DNA of 64,000 bases from Propionimicrobium lymphophilum DSM 4903 (GTDB taxonomy: Bacteria > Actinomycetota > Actinomycetes > Propionibacteriales > Propionibacteriaceae). A model generated the notes under the pieces. It did not search any database. It had not been told where the DNA came from and worked only from the letters and a program-made list of their open reading frames with translations. The position numbers were made by a program, and so were the translations under genes. How positions within the stretch are numbered: the stretch's first letter is position 1; every line of letters starts with the position of its first letter. The stretch covers positions 21,492-85,491 of the forward strand of contig NZ_AUIB01000004.1 of the NCBI RefSeq assembly GCF_000423485.1, in the 5' to 3' direction. Below are positions 1,942 to 45,428 of this stretch, in pieces.

Positions 1942-3369
1942 ATGAGTAAAAAAGAACACACCACGCTCGAGCGTCGGTTGACCAGCGGCCAAGTGGCCAT
2001 GATTGGCCTTTCGGGCGCGCTCGGCACCGGTCTTTTCTTGGGGTCCGGCTCGGTTATCGCGCTGGGCGGCCCGGCCACCGTCATCAGCTACGTTCTGGCT
2101 GGCCTCTGCGCACTGTCGATCGTCTGGGCGCTAGCGGAGATGGTGACGGTTCACCCCGTCCCGGGTGGCGTTGGACGAGTTGCTGGCAGCTATCTTGGGC
2201 CCTTCGGCGGTTATCTCACGCACTGGAATTTCGCGATTGAAATGCTGATCGCAGTCGGGGCCGAGGTGACGGCGTCGGCGACGTACCTGCACTTCTGGTT
2301 CCCCAACCTGCACCTGGGCATCGGCACAATCCTCTGTTCGCTTTTCGTGATTGGCCTGAACATGGCCACTGTGCGCCTCTACGGAACGAGCGAATACTGG
2401 TTCTCGATGATTAAGGTTACCGCGATCGTCGTGTTCATCCTTCTCGGTCTTTATCTAATCTTCTTCGGTTCCTCCGCCGATCACGCCACCGGATTCGGTA
2501 ACCTGACTACAGACGGGGGCTTCTTCGCCACCGGTTTCGGCGGTGTGCTCGCGGCCGCCTGCATGGCCGTGTTCTCCTTCGGCGGTATAGAGAATGTTTC
2601 GATCGGTGCGGCCGAGTCCGAGCATCCCGAGCGTGACGTGCCCCGCGCGGCCCACACCATGATTTGGCGTCTGCTGATCTTCTACGTGCTTGCAATCCTG
2701 GTTGTGCTCGCGCTGCAACCGTGGACAGAAACCGCGCAGGGTGGCGGCACCGTCAATGAATCGCCGTTTGTGCGAGTCCTGGAGATGACGGGTGTGCCCG
2801 CCGCCGCGCACATCATGAACGCGATTCTTTTGGTGGCCGCGCTTTCGGCTGCGAACGGCTGCCTGTATGCGTCGAGCCGCATGATTCACTCACTCGGCGA
2901 GCAGCGCATGGCTCCCCGCTTCACCGCGCGAACCTCCACCCATGGCGCTCCCCGCGGAGCCGTCCTTATCGCGGCTGCGGGCATGGCGATCGCCTCCATC
3001 CTGGCACTGACAAGCCCCGACAAGGCGTTCATGTACCTGTATGGCTGTGCGACCGTTGGCATTCTTGTGACGTGGATCATGGTGATGATTACGCACCTGA
3101 AGTTCCGCAGGGACCGCAAGCAGGCGGGCCTCGGCATTCCGAAGGCGCATCTGCTTGGCGCGCCCGTCGTAAACTACCTGATCATCGCAGTCTCCATCGC
3201 AATTTTCATCGCACTGCGCTGGCTGCTGCCACCGGTTTGGACGGCCGGCATCCCGTACATCATCCTGCTGTGCCTTTCGTACCTGCTTGTCAGGAACCGT
3301 CATTCGGGCATACCGCGCGGAGACCTGCTGGGGCAGTCCGTTCAGCAAGAGAAGAGCCAAAAGGCATAG
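1942..3369 (+). CDS. Amino-acid permease (APC superfamily, AAT family)
   Basis: A 475-residue integral membrane protein with about 12 hydrophobic segments. It opens with LERRLTSGQVAMIGLSGALG and GTGLFLGSG, the helix-1 signature of proton-coupled amino-acid permeases of the CycA/GabP/ProY group. The specific substrate cannot be read from sequence. The ATG at 1942 has a GGAGGG site a few nt upstream; a longer in-frame start at 1828 lacks one. It converges with cysE across a short strong terminator. A segment of this gene (about 2734-2867) is repeated in a damaged chimera near 10.5 kb, so a second permease-cysE locus probably once existed. Confidence 0.88.
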   Translation: MSKKEHTTLERRLTSGQVAMIGLSGALGTGLFLGSGSVIALGGPATVISYVLAGLCALSIVWALAEMVTVHPVPGGVGRVAGSYLGPFGGYLTHWNFAIEMLIAVGAEVTASATYLHFWFPNLHLGIGTILCSLFVIGLNMATVRLYGTSEYWFSMIKVTAIVVFILLGLYLIFFGSSADHATGFGNLTTDGGFFATGFGGVLAAACMAVFSFGGIENVSIGAAESEHPERDVPRAAHTMIWRLLIFYVLAILVVLALQPWTETAQGGGTVNESPFVRVLEMTGVPAAAHIMNAILLVAALSAANGCLYASSRMIHSLGEQRMAPRFTARTSTHGAPRGAVLIAAAGMAIASILALTSPDKAFMYLYGCATVGILVTWIMVMITHLKFRRDRKQAGLGIPKAHLLGAPVVNYLIIAVSIAIFIALRWLLPPVWTAGIPYIILLCLSYLLVRNRHSGIPRGDLLGQSVQQEKSQKA

Positions 3370-3387
3370 TCGAAAACCCATATAGAT

Positions 3388-3431
3388 GAAAGGTAGCGTC
3401 CCCTGAAATTTTTGGGGGACGCTACCTTTTT
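3388..3431. terminator. Bidirectional factor-independent terminator between permease and cysE
   Basis: A long inverted repeat, AAAGGTAGCGTCCCC / GGGGGACGCTACCTTT, is flanked by A- and T-runs on opposite sides. It would form a strong stem with a U-tract in either direction and serves two convergent genes. Confidence 0.9.
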
Positions 3432-3440
3432 CTTGAGTTT

Positions 3441-4223
3441 TTACAGCAGCATCTGGTTCATCGTCAGCGACGGGAATTCCTCGGCAGGTGCGTCGATCAC
3501 CTTAGCGGGCACGCCCGTCACCGTGGTGTGAGCCTCGACGTCGCGCAGCACGACGGAACCAGCACCGATCTTCGCGCAGTCGCCCACGGTTATATTGCCC
3601 AGCACCTTTGCGCCGGCGCCGATCATCACGCCCTTGCCGATCCTCGGGTGACGGTCGCCGTCCTCCTTGCCGGTGCCGCCGAGAGTCACCTCGTGCAGCA
3701 TCGAGAAGTTGTCGCCGACGACCGCGGTCTCGCCGATGACGACGCTGGTGGCGTGGTCGAACATGATGCCGCGCCCGATTTTTGCCCCGGGGTGGATGTC
3801 GACGGCGAAAACCTCGCTGATGCGCGACTGCAGGAACAACGCCAGCGGCTTGTGGCCAAGCTCCCAATAGTGATGGGCGATTCGGTAACTCTGAATGGAC
3901 TGGAAACCCTTGAAATACAGGAGCGGCTGCGTGTAGCCGAGAGTGGCCGGGTCGCGGTCTGCCACGGCTTGCAGATCGCAGAGCACGGCGTCGCGAATAT
4001 CCGGGTCGATCAAGGCATCGTCGATCAAACATTCCAGCGCCGAGGCCGTCATGGCGTGATTGGCAAGCTTGCCAGCAAGCAGAGAACTCAGCGCGGACTC
4101 CAAGCTGGGGTGGCGCAAGATAGCCTCGTTCAGGAAACCAGCTAGTGCTGGCTCGGCCTCGGCATCTCGCTTAGCTTCCAGCCTAACCTGAGCCCAGATT
4201 TGATCGTTTGGAACAGTCTTCAC
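3441..4223 (-). CDS. cysE: Serine O-acetyltransferase CysE
   Basis: Transfers acetyl from acetyl-CoA to L-serine, giving O-acetylserine for cysteine synthesis. At 260 residues it is the long, enterobacterial-type form: an N-terminal helical domain (about 1-140, PNDQIWAQVRLEAKRDAEAE) and a C-terminal left-handed beta-helix of hexapeptide repeats (DIHPGAKIGRGIMFDHATSV, HPRIGKGVMIGAGAKVLGNI). The catalytic Asp/His pairs are in DIHPG and FDHAT. The start is GTG at 4223, with a TAGCCT -10 hexamer exactly 6 nt before it and no Shine-Dalgarno, so the mRNA is probably leaderless. A 5' duplicate of this gene survives at about 10.6-10.9 kb. Confidence 0.95.
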   Translation of the reverse strand: MKTVPNDQIWAQVRLEAKRDAEAEPALAGFLNEAILRHPSLESALSSLLAGKLANHAMTASALECLIDDALIDPDIRDAVLCDLQAVADRDPATLGYTQPLLYFKGFQSIQSYRIAHHYWELGHKPLALFLQSRISEVFAVDIHPGAKIGRGIMFDHATSVVIGETAVVGDNFSMLHEVTLGGTGKEDGDRHPRIGKGVMIGAGAKVLGNITVGDCAKIGAGSVVLRDVEAHTTVTGVPAKVIDAPAEEFPSLTMNQMLL

Positions 4224-4229
4224 ATTACT

Positions 4230-4235
4230 AGGCTA
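4230..4235 (-). promoter_or_regulatory. -10 element of leaderless cysE promoter
   Basis: TAGCCT followed by 6 nt and the GTG start. The same element is preserved in the relic copy near 10.92 kb. Confidence 0.6.
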
Positions 4236-4333
4236 CCCGCCAACGGAATGAAGTAACTCTCAGCAGGCGCACAGGCACAAAGTTACTTGTCAAGACGCAT
4301 TTGCGAGCAGGCCAGATGTGCCAGACTGTTTTC

Positions 4334-5266
4334 ATGAAGATCCTCGTCGACACTGACCCAGGAGTTGATGACGCCTTCGCGTTGCTCTTCGCCCTGGCTA
4401 ACCCAAATCTAGAAGTGATAGGGGTCACGACGGTTGGTGGAAACGCTTTCCTAGACGACGTGACCCGAAACGCATCCGGTCTGCTGGCCCTGGCAAAGCG
4501 CTACTACGATTTCACTATTCCGACCCTGCATATGGGGCTGCAATCCCACAGGCGCGGGAACGCCGAATCCGTCCACGGCATCGGCGGCCTGGGCGGGGTT
4601 CATCTGCCCGCCAATTTCCCGGTCGGAAATGACGCGATAGGTTTCATCGTAGAAACCTTGAGGGCCAATCCCGGCGAGATCCGCCTGGTCACGCTGGGCC
4701 CGCTGACGAATATCGCGGCCGCGCTCGAAGTGGAGCCCGAGCTGCCGAGGCTTGCTGCCGGAATCAGCATCATGGGCGGTGCGGAACGTGGCGGAAACTC
4801 CGGTAACGAGGCCGAATTCAACATCTGGCAGGATCCTGCCGCAGCGGAAAAGGTTTTTGACGCCGCTTGGACATCGTTTTCGATGTGTGGGCTGGACGCA
4901 ACCGCGTGTACGACTTTCACGCCCGAATTGCGCGAGCTGTGCTTCCAGGTTGGCCGCGAGGGCAACGAGATCGGCACGCTGTTGCACGACATCACCCGCG
5001 ACTACATCAACCGCGACTGGACCGCGAACCAGGTGCTCGGCTGCCGGGTGCACGACCTGCTTCCCGTTGCGCTTCTCGTCGACGAAACCATCGCAAAATC
5101 GGTAAAGGCGCGAGTACGGGTGCAAGTTGGCGGCCCGTTCGACGGGCGGACCATCGTCACCCGGGGCACCGGGGACGTGAACGTCTACACGGACAGCACT
5201 GACAATAAGAAGCTGATGAACCTGCTGATGCTTACGCTGTTTCCCCGGCTAAAAAGATTTCTCTAG
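4334..5266 (+). CDS. Inosine-uridine preferring nucleoside hydrolase
   Basis: Hydrolyses the N-glycosidic bond of ribonucleosides, releasing base and ribose for salvage in the cytosol. The 310-residue protein carries the calcium-site motif DTDPGVDDAFALLFA at its N-terminus, GGNAFLDDVTRN, and a C-terminal HDLLPVALLVDE that matches the HDPLAVA active-site region. The ATG at 4334 has no Shine-Dalgarno; a CAGACT -10-like hexamer ends 6 nt upstream, so it may be leaderless. Its 3' end overlaps the 3' end of the convergent transporter ATPase by 18 bp. Substrate preference cannot be assigned. Confidence 0.9.
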   Translation: MKILVDTDPGVDDAFALLFALANPNLEVIGVTTVGGNAFLDDVTRNASGLLALAKRYYDFTIPTLHMGLQSHRRGNAESVHGIGGLGGVHLPANFPVGNDAIGFIVETLRANPGEIRLVTLGPLTNIAAALEVEPELPRLAAGISIMGGAERGGNSGNEAEFNIWQDPAAAEKVFDAAWTSFSMCGLDATACTTFTPELRELCFQVGREGNEIGTLLHDITRDYINRDWTANQVLGCRVHDLLPVALLVDETIAKSVKARVRVQVGGPFDGRTIVTRGTGDVNVYTDSTDNKKLMNLLMLTLFPRLKRFL

Positions 5267-5974
5267 CTTTCGCTGCTTCGGCTCAACCAGGGAAAGCAGA
5301 CCGTCTTCGAAACGGTAGTAGCGTCCACACATTGCCTTGATCAGATCGAGGTCGTGCGAAATAAGCATTACGGTAAGCCCGTGCTCTTCATTGAGTCGCC
5401 TAACCAGGCCCATGATCTGTGCCTGCACCGAAAGATCCAACATGGAACTGGCCTCGTCCAGCAGAAGGCACGATGGTTCCATCAGGAGGCACCTTGCCAG
5501 GGCTAGCCGCTGCAACTGGCCGCCGCTGAGCTGGTGCGGATAGCGTTCGAGCAGAGCTGACTCAAGCCCAACCTCGACGAGCTTCTGCTCAATGAGTTCT
5601 TTCCTGTCCTCGTAAATATTGAACAGATGCAGCGGCTCGTACATGCTCCGCTCAATCAGCCACCTGGGGTTGAACGCATTTCTGGGATCTTGAAAGACCA
5701 TCTGGACATCCCGGTGCATTTCACGTCTTGCTCGCGGGCTCAAGCTTTTGATGTCCTGACCCAGATATTTTATTTTGCCCTGCGACCAGTCCGTTAGCTG
5801 AAAAAACATCCTGAACAGGGTGGATTTGCCGCAGCCGCTCGGCCCGTAGAGCCCCAGGATTTCGCCCTTGTGTATCTCTAGGTCTAGATCGGTGAAAACG
5901 ACCCTTGGTTTAGATGTCAATAGAGACGGATAGGACTTCGTGACTCCCTCATAGCTCAGCAATACTTCAGACAT
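5249..5974 (-). CDS. ABC transporter ATP-binding protein, NikE/DppF type
   Basis: Second ATPase of the nickel/peptide-class importer. The 241-residue protein has Walker A GPSGCGKST, the signature LSGGQLQRLALAR and Walker B CLLLDEASSMLD, followed by the His-loop LISHDLD. It lacks the long oligopeptide C-terminal extension of its partner. The ATG at 5974 lies inside the 3' end of the upstream ATPase gene (19-bp overlap), which implies translational coupling. It is the last gene of the operon that begins with the cobalamin riboswitch and presumably powers uptake of the ligand bound by the lipoprotein. Confidence 0.88.
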   Translation of the reverse strand: MSEVLLSYEGVTKSYPSLLTSKPRVVFTDLDLEIHKGEILGLYGPSGCGKSTLFRMFFQLTDWSQGKIKYLGQDIKSLSPRARREMHRDVQMVFQDPRNAFNPRWLIERSMYEPLHLFNIYEDRKELIEQKLVEVGLESALLERYPHQLSGGQLQRLALARCLLMEPSCLLLDEASSMLDLSVQAQIMGLVRRLNEEHGLTVMLISHDLDLIKAMCGRYYRFEDGLLSLVEPKQRKLEKSF

Positions 5975-6885
5975 AGCACCTGCCGATCGTCTAAATTCAC
6001 AAATTCGCTCCAATTGACACACTCCGGCCTTGCATGTGGGCAGCGGGGTTCGAATGGGCAGCCCGACGGGCGTGTATAGAAGCTCGGAGACTCACCCGCG
6101 ATGGCTTTCAATCCTCGGCTCGGTAGAGCGTCTAACAGCCCTTGCGAATAGGGGTGGGCGGGTGCGTCGAAGAAGCTATCCGCATCGGCCATCTCCACGA
6201 TCTTTGAACCGTAGAAAACCCACACCTGGTCGGCTATTTCTTTAGCAAGTTTGACGTCGTGGGTGATGACCAGCAGGGTCTTACCGGACCTAGCCAGTGC
6301 GAGGATCAGGTCCTTGATGCTTTCTGTGTTCACCGGATCTAGGCCCTTGGTGGGCTCGTCAAGAATCAGGAATGACGGGTCCAGACCGATGCCAGTGGCG
6401 ATTAGAGCGCGCTGAGCCATTCCGCCGCTCAACTCGAAGGAGTAGTTTTCTGCCACCGCCTCGCAAAGGTTGGCTTTGCGCAATTGCTCGTTCGCGAATG
6501 CCCGCTTCTGTTTCCACTTGATTCTGCGCTTGTGGAAGGGCGCTTCGGATACGAGTTCTTTGATCTTGAAACTGGGGTTCAGGGCTGAAATCGCGTTTTG
6601 GGCGACCCACCCGATTTGCTCGCCGCGCACGGAATCGTATTGCGTATCGGAAAGCCCGATTAGCTCCCGCCCATCGAAGACGATACTTCCCTCGGCCTTA
6701 GCATTCACAGGCAACAGACCCACAATCGCAGAACCGAGCACGGATTTGCCACTTCCCGATTCGCCGACGATAGCGGTCACTTTGTTACGTTCAACACTCG
6801 CGTTGACGTCTGTGACTGCATAGCCCTTGCCGGTGCGGGTTTTAAAAGTGACGTTCAGATTAGATATTTCTAGCAGCGCGCTCAT
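5956..6885 (-). CDS. ABC transporter ATP-binding protein, NikD/DppD type
   Basis: First ATPase of the importer, 309 residues. Walker A is GESGSGKSVLG, the signature is ELSGGMAQRALIA and Walker B is FLILDEPTKGLDP. The C-terminal oligopeptide/dipeptide domain with paired cysteines (SGCPFEPRCPHARPEC) is characteristic of OppD/DppD/NikD subunits and in some relatives holds an iron-sulphur cluster. The start overlaps the stop of the upstream permease gene by 4 bp (ATGA), and its own 3' end overlaps the next ATPase. Family membership is certain; the substrate is inferred only from the riboswitch. Confidence 0.9.
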   Translation of the reverse strand: MSALLEISNLNVTFKTRTGKGYAVTDVNASVERNKVTAIVGESGSGKSVLGSAIVGLLPVNAKAEGSIVFDGRELIGLSDTQYDSVRGEQIGWVAQNAISALNPSFKIKELVSEAPFHKRRIKWKQKRAFANEQLRKANLCEAVAENYSFELSGGMAQRALIATGIGLDPSFLILDEPTKGLDPVNTESIKDLILALARSGKTLLVITHDVKLAKEIADQVWVFYGSKIVEMADADSFFDAPAHPYSQGLLDALPSRGLKAIAGESPSFYTRPSGCPFEPRCPHARPECVNWSEFVNLDDRQVLCLKYC

Positions 6886-7709
6886 CGGCCCACCTGCATT
6901 TCATCGTTCTGGTAGACATCCCAGCGATCCCGCAAGATTTCGCCGAGACGAATCGCGAAAAATGCAGCCAACAGCATCATCAATGCCGGGGCGATCAAGG
7001 CATAAGGCTGCACCCCGAAATACTGCCTGGCGTCCTGCACCATAACGCCCCAATCCGGAGTGGGCGGCTGCAACCCGACTCCGATGAAGCTCAAGGAACT
7101 GATGGTCAAAATCATTCTTCCCATCCGGTTCATTGCGAGCACAACCAGAGTCGGAAATGCCAGAGGCAGCACGTGCCTGCTGACCAGATAGAAGGAGCCG
7201 GGCAAATAGAGTCGAGCCGCGTCGACGAACTGCCTGTCCTTGTAGCTTCTGACCTGAGAACGGACGAGTCGAGAAACGCCCGACCACCCGGTTAACACCA
7301 TGGCGATGAAGATCGATAAATTGCTGGCACCCAAAACACCGACGATCGCGATCGCGATGCTCAGACCAGGCAACCCCTGGAAAATACTCATGAGCACCTG
7401 GACGCCAGCATCAGCCCACTTACCGAACCAGCCCGCCACTGAACCGAAGAAGACGCCGACGACCATGCTGATCAAGGTGGCTGCGAAGCTGATGCTCAAG
7501 GCACCCCTGCCGCCATAAATTACTCGGGAGGCGACGTCTCTTCCCAGACTGTCCGTGCCCAGCCAATGGGCAGCACTAGGCAGTTCATTGCGCAGCGACA
7601 TCTGCGTCTCGACCGGATCCAAAGGAGCGATCAGTGGAGCCGCGATACTCATCACGGCCAACAAAACCAAGACCGCAATGGAGAAAATTAGTTTCCTGTT
7701 GCCTCTCAA
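6882..7709 (-). CDS. ABC transporter permease, NikC/DppC type
   Basis: Inner-membrane permease of 275 residues with about six transmembrane segments. The N-terminal region ends in the DPVETQMSLRNELPSAAHWLG consensus, followed by TDSLGRDVASRVIYGGR, which identifies DppC/NikC subunits. The EAA-type ATPase-docking loop lies around DAARLYLPGSFYLVSRHVLP. It starts inside the stop of the upstream permease gene (ATGA overlap) and overlaps the ATPase gene downstream, so the operon is tightly coupled. Confidence 0.88.
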   Translation of the reverse strand: MRGNRKLIFSIAVLVLLAVMSIAAPLIAPLDPVETQMSLRNELPSAAHWLGTDSLGRDVASRVIYGGRGALSISFAATLISMVVGVFFGSVAGWFGKWADAGVQVLMSIFQGLPGLSIAIAIVGVLGASNLSIFIAMVLTGWSGVSRLVRSQVRSYKDRQFVDAARLYLPGSFYLVSRHVLPLAFPTLVVLAMNRMGRMILTISSLSFIGVGLQPPTPDWGVMVQDARQYFGVQPYALIAPALMMLLAAFFAIRLGEILRDRWDVYQNDEMQVGR

Positions 7710-8650
7710 TTCAGCCTCCTCAGCTGGGGCTGAACGGTCATCTGCAGAATATCGGCTAGCAGGAACACGATCAGGCAGATTATGCCCATCACCAAGACGT
7801 AGGCCTGAACCGCTGGATAATCATGAGAATTAATGGACTTGAGCACCCACTGCCCTAACCCTGGAAGAGCGAAAATAGATTCCGCTATGGTGGAGCCGCC
7901 CAAAATCCCAACGAAATAGTTACCCCACAAGCTAACGATGCTCGCGAAGGCGTTGGGGATGGCGTGCTTAGCCATCGAAAACTTGTATGAAAAACCCTTC
8001 GACCTGGCCATCTCGAAATATTCCTCACCCAACACCGACAGCAGATCAGAGCGAAAAACCCTGGTGATCATCATCGTCGAACTGAGCGATATGGAGACGG
8101 CGGGGAGGATTAAAGATGAAAAACCCGAGAAACCGCTAGTCGGCAACAGCCTGAGCCCCTCGGCAAAAATGAGCATCAGGATGATCGCCACCAGGAAGCC
8201 AGGAATAGCCGAAAACAGGCTTGTGATGCCCAGAAAAATTCGGTCTAGCAAGCTGTCCTTGTGGAGCGCGAGCAAATAACCCAGCGGCAGGGAGATCAAC
8301 ACCAGAATGGCCATGGCCAGCAGCGAAAGCTGCAGCGTCACGGGAATCCTGAGAAGTAGATCGTGCTCAATAGAGCGGCTCGTCATGAACGAGACACCAA
8401 TATTCCCCCGCAACAGTTGACCAACCCAAAGGATGTACTGCTCGAAGAACGAACGGTCCAGACCAAGCTCGCGACGAACCATAGCGAGCTGTTCGTCGCT
8501 TGGTGCGTCCACTCCGTCCGAAGCCAAGATCGCGTAGGCCGGATCTCCTGGGGCAATATGCCCCAGGAGAAAGCTAAGCAGTGTGATACCGAAAAGCGTG
8601 AGCAGTCCGGTCACCGCATAGCGGCCAGCGATTCGAAGAATCTTGGACAT
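7706..8650 (-). CDS. ABC transporter permease, NikB/DppB type
   Basis: 314-residue permease with about six transmembrane helices. The start (GRYAVTGLLTLFGITLLSF), the HIAPGDPA motif and the C-terminal DYPAVQAYVLVMG are classic for DppB/NikB. The EAA loop is near YFEMARSKGFSYKF. Its ATG overlaps the lipoprotein stop by one base (TAATG). It pairs with the NikC-type subunit to form the channel. Confidence 0.88.
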   Translation of the reverse strand: MSKILRIAGRYAVTGLLTLFGITLLSFLLGHIAPGDPAYAILASDGVDAPSDEQLAMVRRELGLDRSFFEQYILWVGQLLRGNIGVSFMTSRSIEHDLLLRIPVTLQLSLLAMAILVLISLPLGYLLALHKDSLLDRIFLGITSLFSAIPGFLVAIILMLIFAEGLRLLPTSGFSGFSSLILPAVSISLSSTMMITRVFRSDLLSVLGEEYFEMARSKGFSYKFSMAKHAIPNAFASIVSLWGNYFVGILGGSTIAESIFALPGLGQWVLKSINSHDYPAVQAYVLVMGIICLIVFLLADILQMTVQPQLRRLN

Positions 8651-10194
8651 TAAGCGAGGTACATCTTCGAGAGCGTAACGCCGTAAGACGTAGCCTCATA
8701 GCCCTTAAGATCCTTGCTGTGCACAACCAGGTAACTGTCATGGTACAGCGGGATGGTCGGCAGGGTCTCAATAGCGAGCTCCTGCAGTTCCTTGTAGATT
8801 TCGATCCTCTTATTCTCATCCAGCTCCGCAGCCGCCTTGCTCAGCAGCTCGGTGGCCTCCGGATTGTCGTAGCGGCCGCCATTATCAGGACCCATGAAGA
8901 CCTTGAGCATGGTAATCGGCTCGCCGTCAGGCATGCCCTGGGTGTGGAACGAAAGATCGAAGTTGCCTTCCTTGCGGCGCTTCATCTGCTCGGAGCCCTC
9001 GAGAATGGTGATCTCGACGTCGATGCCAAGCTCCTTCAGCACGGACTGAACGTATTCGGCCTGTTCCTTGTAGGGGTAGCGGTCGATGCCGTACTGCGGC
9101 ACCAACAGTTCGAGTGAGATTCGGTTGTCGCCGAGAACCTCAGCTGCCAGCTTCTTAGCTTCTTCAGGATCGTACTTCGGCTTGTCCTGCTTGTAGCCCA
9201 GCTCGCTAGCATTCAGCGGGTTGGAGGTTGCCACCGCGAAGCCGTGGTAGAACTCGTCGACAATCATCTGACGGTCGATAGCCAAAGACATTGCCTTAAC
9301 CAGACGGGGATCGTTGAGGTATTCCTTCGACTGGTTCACCTGCATGAAGTGGGTGATGGTCGACGGCTTGTACGAAGCCTCGAACTTGCCGGAATCGACG
9401 AGTTCCTTAGCCTGCGAGGGCCAGATAGCGCCGATGTCAAGAACGCCCTGGATCTCGCCGGACCTCAGCGCGGCAGCGCGGGTATCGGAGCTAGGCATGG
9501 AAAGAACTTTGACGGACTTCGTCTTGGCCTTTTCACCCCAGTAGTCTTCATTGGCCTTGAGAATCGTGTATTGATCCTGCTGGTGCTCGGTGATCTTGAA
9601 GGGGCCGGTCCCCTGAACGACGGTGGCGAAATCGCCGTTTTCGTCCAAGCATTTGGGACTAACCATCGGGCTACCGAAGTTCGTCAGACGCTGAATAGCG
9701 GTGGGCGAAGGCTCGCTGAAGACCAGCTTGACGGTGTTATCGTCGACCTTTTCGGTGTGGTCGAGGCCAGGGTAGGTCTTCTTGGCGTCAATGGTGTAGA
9801 ACGGCGATTTCTTGGGGCTGTGCTTCACAACGCGCTCGATATTGGCGATCACAGCGTCAGCATTAAACGGCTCACCATCGTGGAATTTGACGTTCTCACG
9901 TAGCTTGATTGTCCATTCTTTACCGTCTGGGGACATTTCCCAGCTGGTTGCAAGGGACGGAGCTGCGTGGCCGTCCTCGCCAAGGAGCACGAGTGGCTCC
10001 CAAACCTGCATGATCAGGCTGGTGTAATAGCCGTCCTTTTCACCGGGGGTTAGATCACGGGGAGCAGCGAGGACTACCTGTTTGTCACTCTGACCGGCAT
10101 CACTTTCAGCGGAGGTTTTGGCACCAGTGCCACATCCGGTAAGAGCCAGCAGAACGGCCATCGCCGCGGCCAGCATCTTTAAGATACGTTTCAC
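8650..10194 (-). CDS. Substrate-binding lipoprotein (SBP family 5, NikA-like) under a cobalamin riboswitch
   Basis: Extracytoplasmic solute receptor of the importer. The 514-residue precursor starts MKRILKMLAAAMAVLLALTG, with the lipobox LTGCG giving a lipid-anchored cysteine at about residue 21. The mature part has SBP-5 hallmarks: YTSLIMQVWEPLV, LATSWEMSPDGKEWTIKLR and VKFHDGEPFNADAV. The start is GTG at 10194, with AGGAGA 5-6 nt before it. Family 5 includes peptide, nickel and other binders, so homology alone does not give the ligand. The B12 riboswitch immediately upstream makes cobalt, nickel used alongside cobalt, or a corrinoid/ligand precursor the best guess. Confidence 0.88.
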   Translation of the reverse strand: MKRILKMLAAAMAVLLALTGCGTGAKTSAESDAGQSDKQVVLAAPRDLTPGEKDGYYTSLIMQVWEPLVLLGEDGHAAPSLATSWEMSPDGKEWTIKLRENVKFHDGEPFNADAVIANIERVVKHSPKKSPFYTIDAKKTYPGLDHTEKVDDNTVKLVFSEPSPTAIQRLTNFGSPMVSPKCLDENGDFATVVQGTGPFKITEHQQDQYTILKANEDYWGEKAKTKSVKVLSMPSSDTRAAALRSGEIQGVLDIGAIWPSQAKELVDSGKFEASYKPSTITHFMQVNQSKEYLNDPRLVKAMSLAIDRQMIVDEFYHGFAVATSNPLNASELGYKQDKPKYDPEEAKKLAAEVLGDNRISLELLVPQYGIDRYPYKEQAEYVQSVLKELGIDVEITILEGSEQMKRRKEGNFDLSFHTQGMPDGEPITMLKVFMGPDNGGRYDNPEATELLSKAAAELDENKRIEIYKELQELAIETLPTIPLYHDSYLVVHSKDLKGYEATSYGVTLSKMYLA

Positions 10195-10219
10195 CTTTTC
10201 TCCTAGTTTTTTAAGATGA

Positions 10220-10276
10220 GCTTGCGGCTATGCGGCGAAACGCGAATGAAATACAGCCATCCTCGTGGCCGCAAAG
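10220..10276 (-). promoter_or_regulatory. Hairpin between riboswitch and first transporter gene (possible expression platform)
   Basis: On the minus strand TTGCGGC pairs with GCCGCAA around a long loop. No clean U-run follows, so this could be part of a translational or antiterminator switch rather than a simple terminator. The alternative pairing with the aptamer was not resolved. Confidence 0.4.
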
Positions 10277-10284
10277 CACTTCTT

Positions 10285-10385
10285 CAGTTAGAGAGGTATC
10301 TGACTTAGCTCATCGCATCACAGTTACGGGATAGTTCGGGGTTCTCACCCGATTCCCTCTTGGCAAGGAAGCCTATATTTATTCC
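10285..10385 (-). promoter_or_regulatory. Cobalamin (B12) riboswitch aptamer
   Basis: Reading the minus strand, the conserved core elements appear in the right order: GAGGGAATCGGGTGAGAA, then CTATCCCGTAACTGT, then AAGTCAGATACC. These match the B12-box core (GGGAA..GGTG..AA, CCCGC-AACTG, AGTCAGA-ACC). It lies about 90 nt upstream of the GTG of the NikA-like lipoprotein gene and transcribes into it. Cobalamin riboswitches normally switch off B12 synthesis and cobalt or corrinoid uptake when adenosylcobalamin or a related corrinoid is plentiful. An A/T-rich -10-like sequence (TAAATA) sits just upstream of the aptamer. Confidence 0.87.
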
Positions 10386-10492
10386 ACAGGATTTGCCACC
10401 GTGTAGGGCATGTTCGGGGCGGATCGAAGTTTGATTTAGCCGACCGGCGCTGTCTTCGATTCGTCCAGGACGATACACACTTCGTCGCCTGG

Positions 10493-10926
10493 GCACAGGG
10501 TGGCGGCACGGTCAATGAATCGCCGTTCGTGCGAGTCCTGGAGCTGACCGGTGTGCCAGCCGCACACATCATGAACGCGATCTTTTTGGTGGCGGCTCTG
10601 TCCGCAGCGAACGGCTGCGTGTAGCCGAGAGTGGCCGGGTCACGGGTGACTACCGCCTGCAGATCGCAGAGCACGGCGTCACGAATATCCGGGTCAATCA
10701 AGGCATCGTCGATCAAACATTCCAGCGCCGAGGCCGTCATCGCTTGATTGGCAAGCTTGCCAGCAAGCAGAGAACTCAGCGCGGACTCCAAGCTGGGGTG
10801 GCGCAAGATGGCCTCGTGCAGGAAACCAGCTAGTGCTGGCTCGGCCTCGGCATCTCGCTTAGCTTCCAGCCTAACCTGAGCCCAGATTTGATCGTTTGGA
10901 ACAGTCTTCAAACCACCAGGCTACCC
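10493..10926 (-). pseudogene. Chimeric relic: permease fragment joined to a 5' fragment of a second cysE
   Basis: Bases 10493-10620 repeat the interior of the amino-acid permease gene (about 2734-2867), with scattered substitutions and a small deletion. Bases 10611-10926 repeat the first 300 bp of cysE, including the TAGCCT -10 element, at roughly 95% identity by eye. The two parts meet at CGGCTGC(G/C)TGTA, a sequence present at both parental sites, so the junction looks like a microhomology deletion in a former permease-cysE copy. The cysE start has become TTG. About 103 CysE residues are followed by antisense permease sequence and an unrelated tail to a stop at 10345. The hexapeptide catalytic domain is gone, so no acetyltransferase activity is expected. 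Confidence 0.85.
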
Positions 10927-43646: not shown

Positions 43647-45428
43647 CTAGCAGGTTGGCGTCCACCGGGCGGCGGCCTCACGAACGCGCATCCCCGTCAG
43701 AAGCATTTGGGCTCCGTAGCAGGCACCGACGCCTTCGCCCGCGCGCATCCGCAGCTCGAGGAGTGGTTCGAGGCCGAGCTCGTCGAGAACTTTCTGGTGG
43801 GCGTGTTCGCGACTGACGTGGGACGCGATCAGCCAGCCTTGCACTCCGGCGCTGATCTGGACGGCAGCCAGCGCGGCGACGCTCGTCGCGAGGCCATCTA
43901 AAACTATGACGCTGCCGGCCTTGGCTGCGCCTAAGACGACGCCCGTCAGCACGGCGAATTCCGGGCCACCGACGGCGGCGAGAGCCTCGATCGGGTCGCG
44001 CAGGTCGCGTCCCTGAAGGCGCTCGAATGCGCCTGTCAGAACCTTGATTTTGCGTTCAACCATCGAGGAGTCGCTGCTGGCACCCAGGCCGACGGCATCC
44101 TCGGGGCTCAGGCCGGCGAGCGCGCACGCCAGCGCGGAGGCCACGGTGGTGTTTCCGATTCCGATTTCGCCCAGGCATACCAGGCCATCGCCGGATAGCT
44201 TCTCGCCCAGCTCGATGCCGCGCTCTACCAGCAATTTAGTTTGTTCGAGGCTCATTGCGTCAGTGGTGACGATGTCGCCGCGCTGGCCGGGCAGCCGCAG
44301 GTCTATTGCGCCCTCGATAGGCCCCTCGTTCACGCCTGCGTCTACTGTCACCGAGGTCAAGCCGATAGTTTTTGCGGTGGCTGCACCCAGCGAAGAGCCG
44401 GCCGCCGAAGCACGCATAACCTCGTATGTGACGGATGAATCGAACGCTGAAATCCTGTGCGAGGTGATCGGGTGATCTGCGCCAACGATGACCAGCGTGC
44501 CGGAATCAACCTTGTCCATCGCGGCACCCAGCCTGTCGAGCGCCTGGTCGAGCTTGCCCAATGATCCCGGAGGCGTCAACAGCTGATCGGCCTCGTCGCG
44601 GGCACCGACCACGTCCAACCTGCCGGGCGCGCTGACCTGCATGTTCGCGTACTTTTCGGCCAGATCCTCGCGTAGCCCAGAAACGGGTGCGGACGGCTCG
44701 TCGGACTGTGGCCAACGGTTTCTCAGCACGACTTCTTCCAGCGGCAGGCGTTTCGACCATCCGCGGCGCTCCAAGCCGGGCGACGGCGGGCGCTCGTCCG
44801 GCCAGCCCAGGCACATCCAACCTAGCGTCTCCACGCCCTCGGGTAGCCCGAGCATTTCGGCTAACTCTGCCGGGTCGAACAGCGTCACCCAGCCCATGCC
44901 AAGCCCGCGCGCCCGGGCGGCAAGCCACATGTTCTCGATCGCGGCCGCGCAGCTCCACATGTCCGCGTCGGTGAAAGTGTTCCTTCCTAGCACTCCCGAT
45001 GATGGGGTTCGCCTATCGCATGCCACCACAATTCCAAGCGGGGCCTCGCGAATGCCCTCCAGTTGAAGGTCCAGCAGTCGCGCCGCGCGGTCTTGAGTCA
45101 GCAGCTTCGCCTGACGTAGCCTCTCGCGGTCTGCCATCACTGCTGCCCGGTCGCGGATGTCTTGGTCGCTGACCACAATGAAGCGCCAGGGTTGCGAATG
45201 TCCAACCGAAGGGCCCCTATGCCCCGCAGTCAAAACCTGTTCGACCTGTTCCTGCGGCACCTCGTCGGCGCGATACCTTCTGATATCTCGCCTTGCAGAA
45301 ATAACCTCATCCAGAGCGGCGGTAACTGCCTCACCCATGCTCCACGCTTCCGGATCCTGCTGGCGGTCTACATGGCTCGTCGCGTCGCCGATGTTCGGCA
45401 CCGGACGTTCGTACTTATCATTGCTCAT
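43647..45428 (-). CDS. BluB-CobT fusion: DMB synthase plus NaMN:DMB phosphoribosyltransferase
   Basis: A 593-residue bifunctional protein for the cobalamin lower ligand. Residues about 30-235 are a BluB-type flavin nitroreductase fold (SARRDIRRYRADEVPQEQVE, HRGPSVGHSQPWRF, ARGLGMGWVTLFDPAEL), which turns reduced FMN into 5,6-dimethylbenzimidazole. Residues about 250-593 are CobT (PPGSLGKLDQALDRLGA, GEIGIGNTTVASAL, with the catalytic Glu region RMRAGEGVGACYG), which makes alpha-ribazole phosphate. The fusion would channel DMB. The start ATG follows TAGTCT-N6. No other cob genes are in the window, but the B12-riboswitch transporter at 5-10 kb is functionally linked. Confidence 0.92.
   Translation of the reverse strand: MSNDKYERPVPNIGDATSHVDRQQDPEAWSMGEAVTAALDEVISARRDIRRYRADEVPQEQVEQVLTAGHRGPSVGHSQPWRFIVVSDQDIRDRAAVMADRERLRQAKLLTQDRAARLLDLQLEGIREAPLGIVVACDRRTPSSGVLGRNTFTDADMWSCAAAIENMWLAARARGLGMGWVTLFDPAELAEMLGLPEGVETLGWMCLGWPDERPPSPGLERRGWSKRLPLEEVVLRNRWPQSDEPSAPVSGLREDLAEKYANMQVSAPGRLDVVGARDEADQLLTPPGSLGKLDQALDRLGAAMDKVDSGTLVIVGADHPITSHRISAFDSSVTYEVMRASAAGSSLGAATAKTIGLTSVTVDAGVNEGPIEGAIDLRLPGQRGDIVTTDAMSLEQTKLLVERGIELGEKLSGDGLVCLGEIGIGNTTVASALACALAGLSPEDAVGLGASSDSSMVERKIKVLTGAFERLQGRDLRDPIEALAAVGGPEFAVLTGVVLGAAKAGSVIVLDGLATSVAALAAVQISAGVQGWLIASHVSREHAHQKVLDELGLEPLLELRMRAGEGVGACYGAQMLLTGMRVREAAARWTPTC

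Follow-up and report, generated by a model that had tools for sequence, protein, structure and literature searches.

A five-gene ABC importer of the substrate-binding protein (SBP) family 5, or "peptide-nickel", class stands behind a cobalamin riboswitch in Propionimicrobium lymphophilum DSM 4903, and its SBP belongs to a distinct clade whose other members come from Bacillota. The stretch of DNA analysed, termed the window below, is 64,000 nucleotides long. We put at about 60% the probability that plentiful adenosylcobalamin or another corrinoid represses this importer through the short riboswitch, probably at translation initiation, and that low B12 permits synthesis of the importer, whose most likely cargo is cobalt. 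The metal would enter in the form of a small Co(II) chelate, not as the free ion, and would feed the corrin pathway encoded by the genome.

The operon is tightly packed, occupying 10194-5249 (-), with its features given in Table 1. The SBP and first permease genes overlap as TAATG, and the next two junctions (permease 1 with permease 2, permease 2 with ATPase 1) overlap by 4 nt each. The lipoprotein gene has a GTG start and an AGGAG Shine-Dalgarno sequence at about 10204-10200. Pfam matches to SBP_bac_5, two BPD_transp_1 and two ABC_tran domains give the architecture of a peptide-nickel importer. The preliminary description of this DNA had set the unit at 8650-10385, which takes in the SBP gene and the aptamer, but the whole unit is longer (10399-5249).

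Table 1. Coordinates of features discussed in the text (window positions)
Feature	Position	Strand	Remarks
Substrate-binding lipoprotein, SBP family 5, lipobox LTGC	8650..10194	-	clade member, not NikA
Permease 1, NikB/OppB-like	7706..8650	-	profile matches
Permease 2, NikC/OppC-like	6882..7709	-	profile matches
ATPase 1, OppD/NikD-like, oligo_HPY C-terminus	5956..6885	-	profile matches
ATPase 2, NikE/OppF-like	5249..5974	-	ATG at 5974 likelier than the longest-ORF start at 6022
Cobalamin riboswitch aptamer, short form of RF00174	10274..10399	-	8 nt replace 66 middle model positions
Expression platform (predicted)	10195..10273	-	anti-aptamer pairing and weak hairpin over Shine-Dalgarno
Scar: 5' part of cysE joined to internal piece of amino-acid permease gene	10493..10925	-	upstream of riboswitch
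BluB-CobT fusion	45428..43647	-	TIGR02476 BluB 220.9 (cut-off 150); CobT part 228.8, under 319.3
Thiamine-type importer	SBP 17311-16037 (longest ORF); permease 15993-14311; ATPase 14307-13300	-	behind TPP riboswitch
Split coiled-coil protein	13266-12814 (signal-peptide part); 12728-11148 (long part with repeats and a VPSTG sortase-like motif)	-	

An aptamer directly before the five-gene importer had been claimed earlier, and cmscan against Rfam bears this out: the sequence passes the gathering threshold of the Cobalamin covariance model RF00174 (42.5 bits against 31.5; E 2.4e-7 for the window and 1.8e-9 for the whole genome) and lies about 80 nt upstream of the lipoprotein gene. It is the one cobalamin riboswitch that the Rfam scan detected in the window. 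Its core motifs AGGGAA, GGUGAGAACCCC, CCCGUAACUGU and AGUCA-GAUACCU are all present, and its short form is common to three other riboswitches of the same genome. Judged by eye, the leader holds no clear complement of L5 (UGAGAAC) for an L5-L13 kissing loop.

Within the aptamer, GATGAGCT (10314-10307) is fully complementary to AGCTCATC, directly upstream of the Shine-Dalgarno sequence, and pairing of the two would disrupt the aptamer. A weak UCUUA/UAGGA hairpin, whose UCUUA adjoins AGCTCATC, is able to mask the Shine-Dalgarno sequence. When B12 is absent the anti-aptamer helix would thus form and open the ribosome site, and when B12 is bound the site would be masked. The 8-bp match was equalled in 41 of 2000 shuffles, so this switching model is a suggestion and not a demonstration. 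A terminator scan of the leader gave nothing above chance level, and control is probably exerted at translation.

The riboswitch might be genuine and yet be a relic of a neighbouring gene, with the operon outside its control. A degraded duplication scar does lie directly upstream, and the aptamer is the lowest-scoring RF00174 match within the riboswitched clade. We nevertheless regard such a relic as very unlikely, given that the SBP start is the sole one downstream and that 12 relatives have a riboswitch heading the same operon. Position and the equal arrangement in these relatives instead lend good support to the earlier claim that B12 controls the importer.

The SBP is none of NikA, CntA, DppA, OppA and GsiB. 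Its best curated models are NikA (TIGR02294 equivalog, 222.8 bits against 393) and CntA (NF047575, 205 against 800), with scores equal to 57% and 26% of the respective cut-offs, and the remaining operon proteins are likewise under the cut-offs of the NikB, NikC, NikD and NikE models. DppA (119.7 against 1005), OppA (97.4 against 947) and GsiB (142.1 against 594) are ruled out by their NCBIfam cut-offs. A tree with 66 SBP5 proteins separates a NikA/CntA group at 100/100 support and places the window SBP outside it. The NikA residues W100, R137, W398, Y402 and H416, which we take to line the pocket, are kept in the seven aligned NikA/CntA-group proteins (H416 in 6/7) but by none of the 13 clade members. 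In place of W100 the clade has Phe, with a single Tyr, in place of R137 always Phe and in place of W398 always Gly, while the position of Y402 is variable; the clade's pocket would appear to have been remodelled for one common ligand. Cut-off, tree and pocket residues together rule out NikA and CntA as identities of the SBP. The initial label "NikABCDE/Opp-type" is therefore apt for the five-gene architecture, but not for the binding protein, which is not NikA. An AlphaFold2 model of the SBP (mean pLDDT 88.8) was searched with Foldseek; dipeptide-, glutathione-, staphylopine- and nickel-binding proteins ranked close together, so the fold leaves the cargo undecided.

The clade comprises 13 SBPs, the window protein and 12 from Bacillota, at 100/99 support. 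The window SBP is basal, the other 12 grouping together at 95/93; it also deviates at several sites that the rest of the clade conserves, and carries a short deletion around residue 438. Its nearest relatives are Bacillota proteins (41-50% identity), and the best matches in its own family and order reach only about 30%. One partial match of 51% in a same-family genome belongs to an ordinary SBP5 protein that has 30% identity overall and no riboswitch. A clade profile separates members (E <1e-200) from the next proteins (about 1e-88) by a clear gap. With this profile the clade was detected in 4 of 391 genomes of Clostridia and 3 of 400 of Bacilli, and in the organism's own class in the present genome alone out of 395. 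The permeases show the same affinity; the ATPases do not discriminate.

A same-strand riboswitch of a cobalamin class precedes each of the 13 clade members, as against 0/27 SBP5 loci that belong neither to the clade nor to the NikA group. One clade operon (L043) carries a riboswitch of the AdoCbl-II class (RF01689), and another (L131) has tandem cobalamin riboswitches at 3275-3471 and 3852-4049 (-), of about 119 bits each. The association of riboswitch and importer thus outlasts changes of riboswitch class.

The 2.04-Mb genome (26 contigs) has six cobalamin matches, five of them over cut-off. Besides that of the window, they precede nrdDG, a cob/cbi operon (CobI, CbiX-like chelatase) and three Fep/Btu-type importers; the strongest (L007 8269-8481, C1:280268) is that of nrdDG, the B12-independent class III ribonucleotide reductase. 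Corrin-pathway genes encoded include CobI, the CbiX-like chelatase, CbiJ, CbiC (C1:41621) and BluB-CobT, the last confirmed as a fusion where the preliminary description had placed it (43.6-45.4 kb), with its BluB part over cut-off. CbiM is encoded at C1:42433, and the whole-genome scan gave no RF00174 match near it. The corrin genes and CbiM suggest that the host is probably a B12 maker in need of cobalt, with the standard ECF cobalt route already there. The presence of CbiM rules out the SBP5 importer as the only cobalt route of the genome. We also observed that a protein near the corrin genes (L009 2199-2951 (-)) looks similar to one (L141 2719-3489 (+)) encoded close to the Fep/Btu-type importer that precedes a clade operon; both are presumably of the kind called 'putative heavy-metal chelation'.

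The nature of the cargo was approached through the hosts. CbiC, indicating de novo corrin synthesis, is present in 13/13 clade hosts. Among 196 Clostridia, the control sample, CbiC was found in 50; 156 have a cobalamin riboswitch, and 46 of these have CbiC. The difference between 13/13 and 46/156 gives a Fisher p of 3.7e-7, or 2.6e-4 counting seven hosts, values which ignore shared ancestry, draw their control from Clostridia only and rely on CbiC as one gene of the pathway. Non-makers would be expected to have an importer of finished corrinoids as well, so that the occurrence of CbiC in all clade hosts favours cobalt over corrinoid salvage. The preliminary description had left the cargo as cobalt or a corrinoid-related compound; of these two, cobalt now seems the better candidate and a corrinoid the less favoured.

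A corrinoid or corrinoid fragment (cobinamide, cobyric acid or a lower-ligand nucleoside) nonetheless deserves consideration, since corrinoid importers are commonly under B12 riboswitches and the other three riboswitched importers of this genome are of the Fep/Btu type. Those same three systems would already serve such a need, however, and the SBP is of family 5 rather than BtuF type: SBP_bac_5 is its sole Pfam match, the BtuF-like Peripla_BP_2 not being matched. With the CbiC distribution added, we consider a corrinoid cargo rather unlikely.

Co-occurrence with CbiC fits a corrin precursor equally well. We therefore keep as a rival an organic compound from which the corrin ring or its side chains are built, for instance 5-aminolevulinate. 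In E. coli 5-aminolevulinate is taken up via the Dpp system, which is related to SBP5 importers. Small amino acids and peptides are bound by SBP5 proteins, and Foldseek places the dipeptide- and glutathione-binding proteins level with NikA/CntA. We know of no precedent for B12-riboswitched aminolevulinate uptake, however, and one would expect the hosts to synthesize aminolevulinate themselves; this cargo appears improbable. A further possibility is a peptide or other nutrient by which a step that needs B12 is circumvented; control by B12 would then serve as a back-up for failure of a B12-dependent enzyme, much as nrdDG is under a cobalamin riboswitch in this genome. Such a function would not predict restriction to corrin makers, and we hold it to be quite improbable.

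The cobalt reading has evidence against it as well. CbiM occurs in this genome and in 6/7 other clade hosts tested, so the SBP5 importer would be a second cobalt route. The clade pocket without the NikA/CntA residues, the divergence of the window SBP and the low aptamer score also count against it.

A SAM-dependent methyltransferase of one family lies inside or ends five of the 13 clade operons (L045, L048, L141, L144 and L145) and is absent from the window operon. The present genome has a weak, unlinked relative beside an NRAMP-like gene (C2:278337), and Paenibacillus sp. H1-7 has a strong homologue, likewise unlinked. This enzyme might make or modify a metal chelator. It could be speculated, at a low probability, that the clade consists of undescribed cobalt-chelate importers with a pocket of their own and that the methyltransferase produces or modifies the chelator, which would amount to a 'cobaltophore' system under B12 regulation.

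Horizontal transfer probably brought the operon to its place next to cysE, as the occurrence of the clade in a single own-class genome indicates. The scar upstream of the riboswitch repeats two parts of window 2734-4237, namely 2734-2867 and 3921-4237, in degraded form and with an internal deletion; its identity to the intact copy is 94% in the cysE portion and 87% in the permease portion. The segment of about 4238-10492 is therefore flanked by the intact cysE/permease region and by the scar, which marks one edge of the acquired segment and is not part of the transporter. These flanks would fit a recombination event in which the incoming piece shared this flank, with one of the two copies later suffering a deletion. 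The distribution of the clade suggests that transfer was from Bacillota to this organism; the window SBP is basal, so no sampled donor can be named. No notable DNA relative that would point to plasmid origin was found in PLSDB. Also within the inserted segment is a nucleoside hydrolase gene (4301-5266 (+); IU_nuc_hydro, under all equivalog cut-offs), with no clear functional link to the transporter.

Two other loci of the window were noted. A TPP riboswitch at 17244-17142 (-), scoring 60.3 bits, precedes a thiamine-type ABC importer and looks ordinary. A coiled-coil surface protein (13266-11148 (-)) is seemingly split over two frames; a frameshift, phase variation or an assembly error may be the cause.

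B12-riboswitched importers of the SBP5 class are a known kind. According to Zhang 2009 (PMC2667541), citing Rodionov 2006, B12 riboswitches had been predicted for NikABCDE-family transporters of C. tetani and D. hafniense, and the riboswitched NikA transporters were predicted to be cobalt importers; Zhang 2009 treated these two as exceptions to nickel specificity (PMC2667541). The nikA riboswitch of Sporomusa ovata has been used in reporter assays (PMC9600662), and among sampled Clostridia we found a riboswitch in 2/7 NikA proteins over the curated cut-off (L154 and L155). The NikABCDE systems of C. tetani, D. hafniense and S. ovata resemble that of the window in being five-gene SBP5-class importers with a cobalamin riboswitch and predicted cobalt cargo, whereas the SBP encoded in the window branches apart from the NikA/CntA clade and has none of the pocket residues of that group. 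For C. tetani and D. hafniense, the published proteins may be members either of NikA proper or of the B12 clade. A B12 riboswitch together with host corrin synthesis, the mark of predicted cobalt importers, was found for 13/13 clade hosts.

Other cobalt systems are less alike. CbtJKL of Sinorhizobium meliloti is an ABC importer with an adenosylcobalamin riboswitch and a genetically shown role in cobalt supply (PMC7689651), but CbtJ is BtuF-like, whereas the window system has a family 5 SBP, two permeases and two ATPases. The table of a 2021 review of cobalt homeostasis lists CbtJKL as the sole canonical ABC importer, and none of NikABCDE type (PMC7689651). CntABCDF of Staphylococcus aureus, which handles metal-staphylopine, is of the same ABC class as the window importer, and CntA with staphylopine and cobalt (5yhe) is among the top Foldseek matches of the window SBP; the pocket Arg and Trp of CntA and NikA are, however, replaced by Phe and Gly in the latter. 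The CbiMNQO ECF transporter shares the predicted cargo and the genome, but its architecture is unrelated.

Judged in the open-access literature, the separate SBP clade looks undescribed. It gives a precise and testable set of candidates for cobalt-chelate uptake, and automatic 'nickel' or 'peptide' labels are unsafe for such operons.
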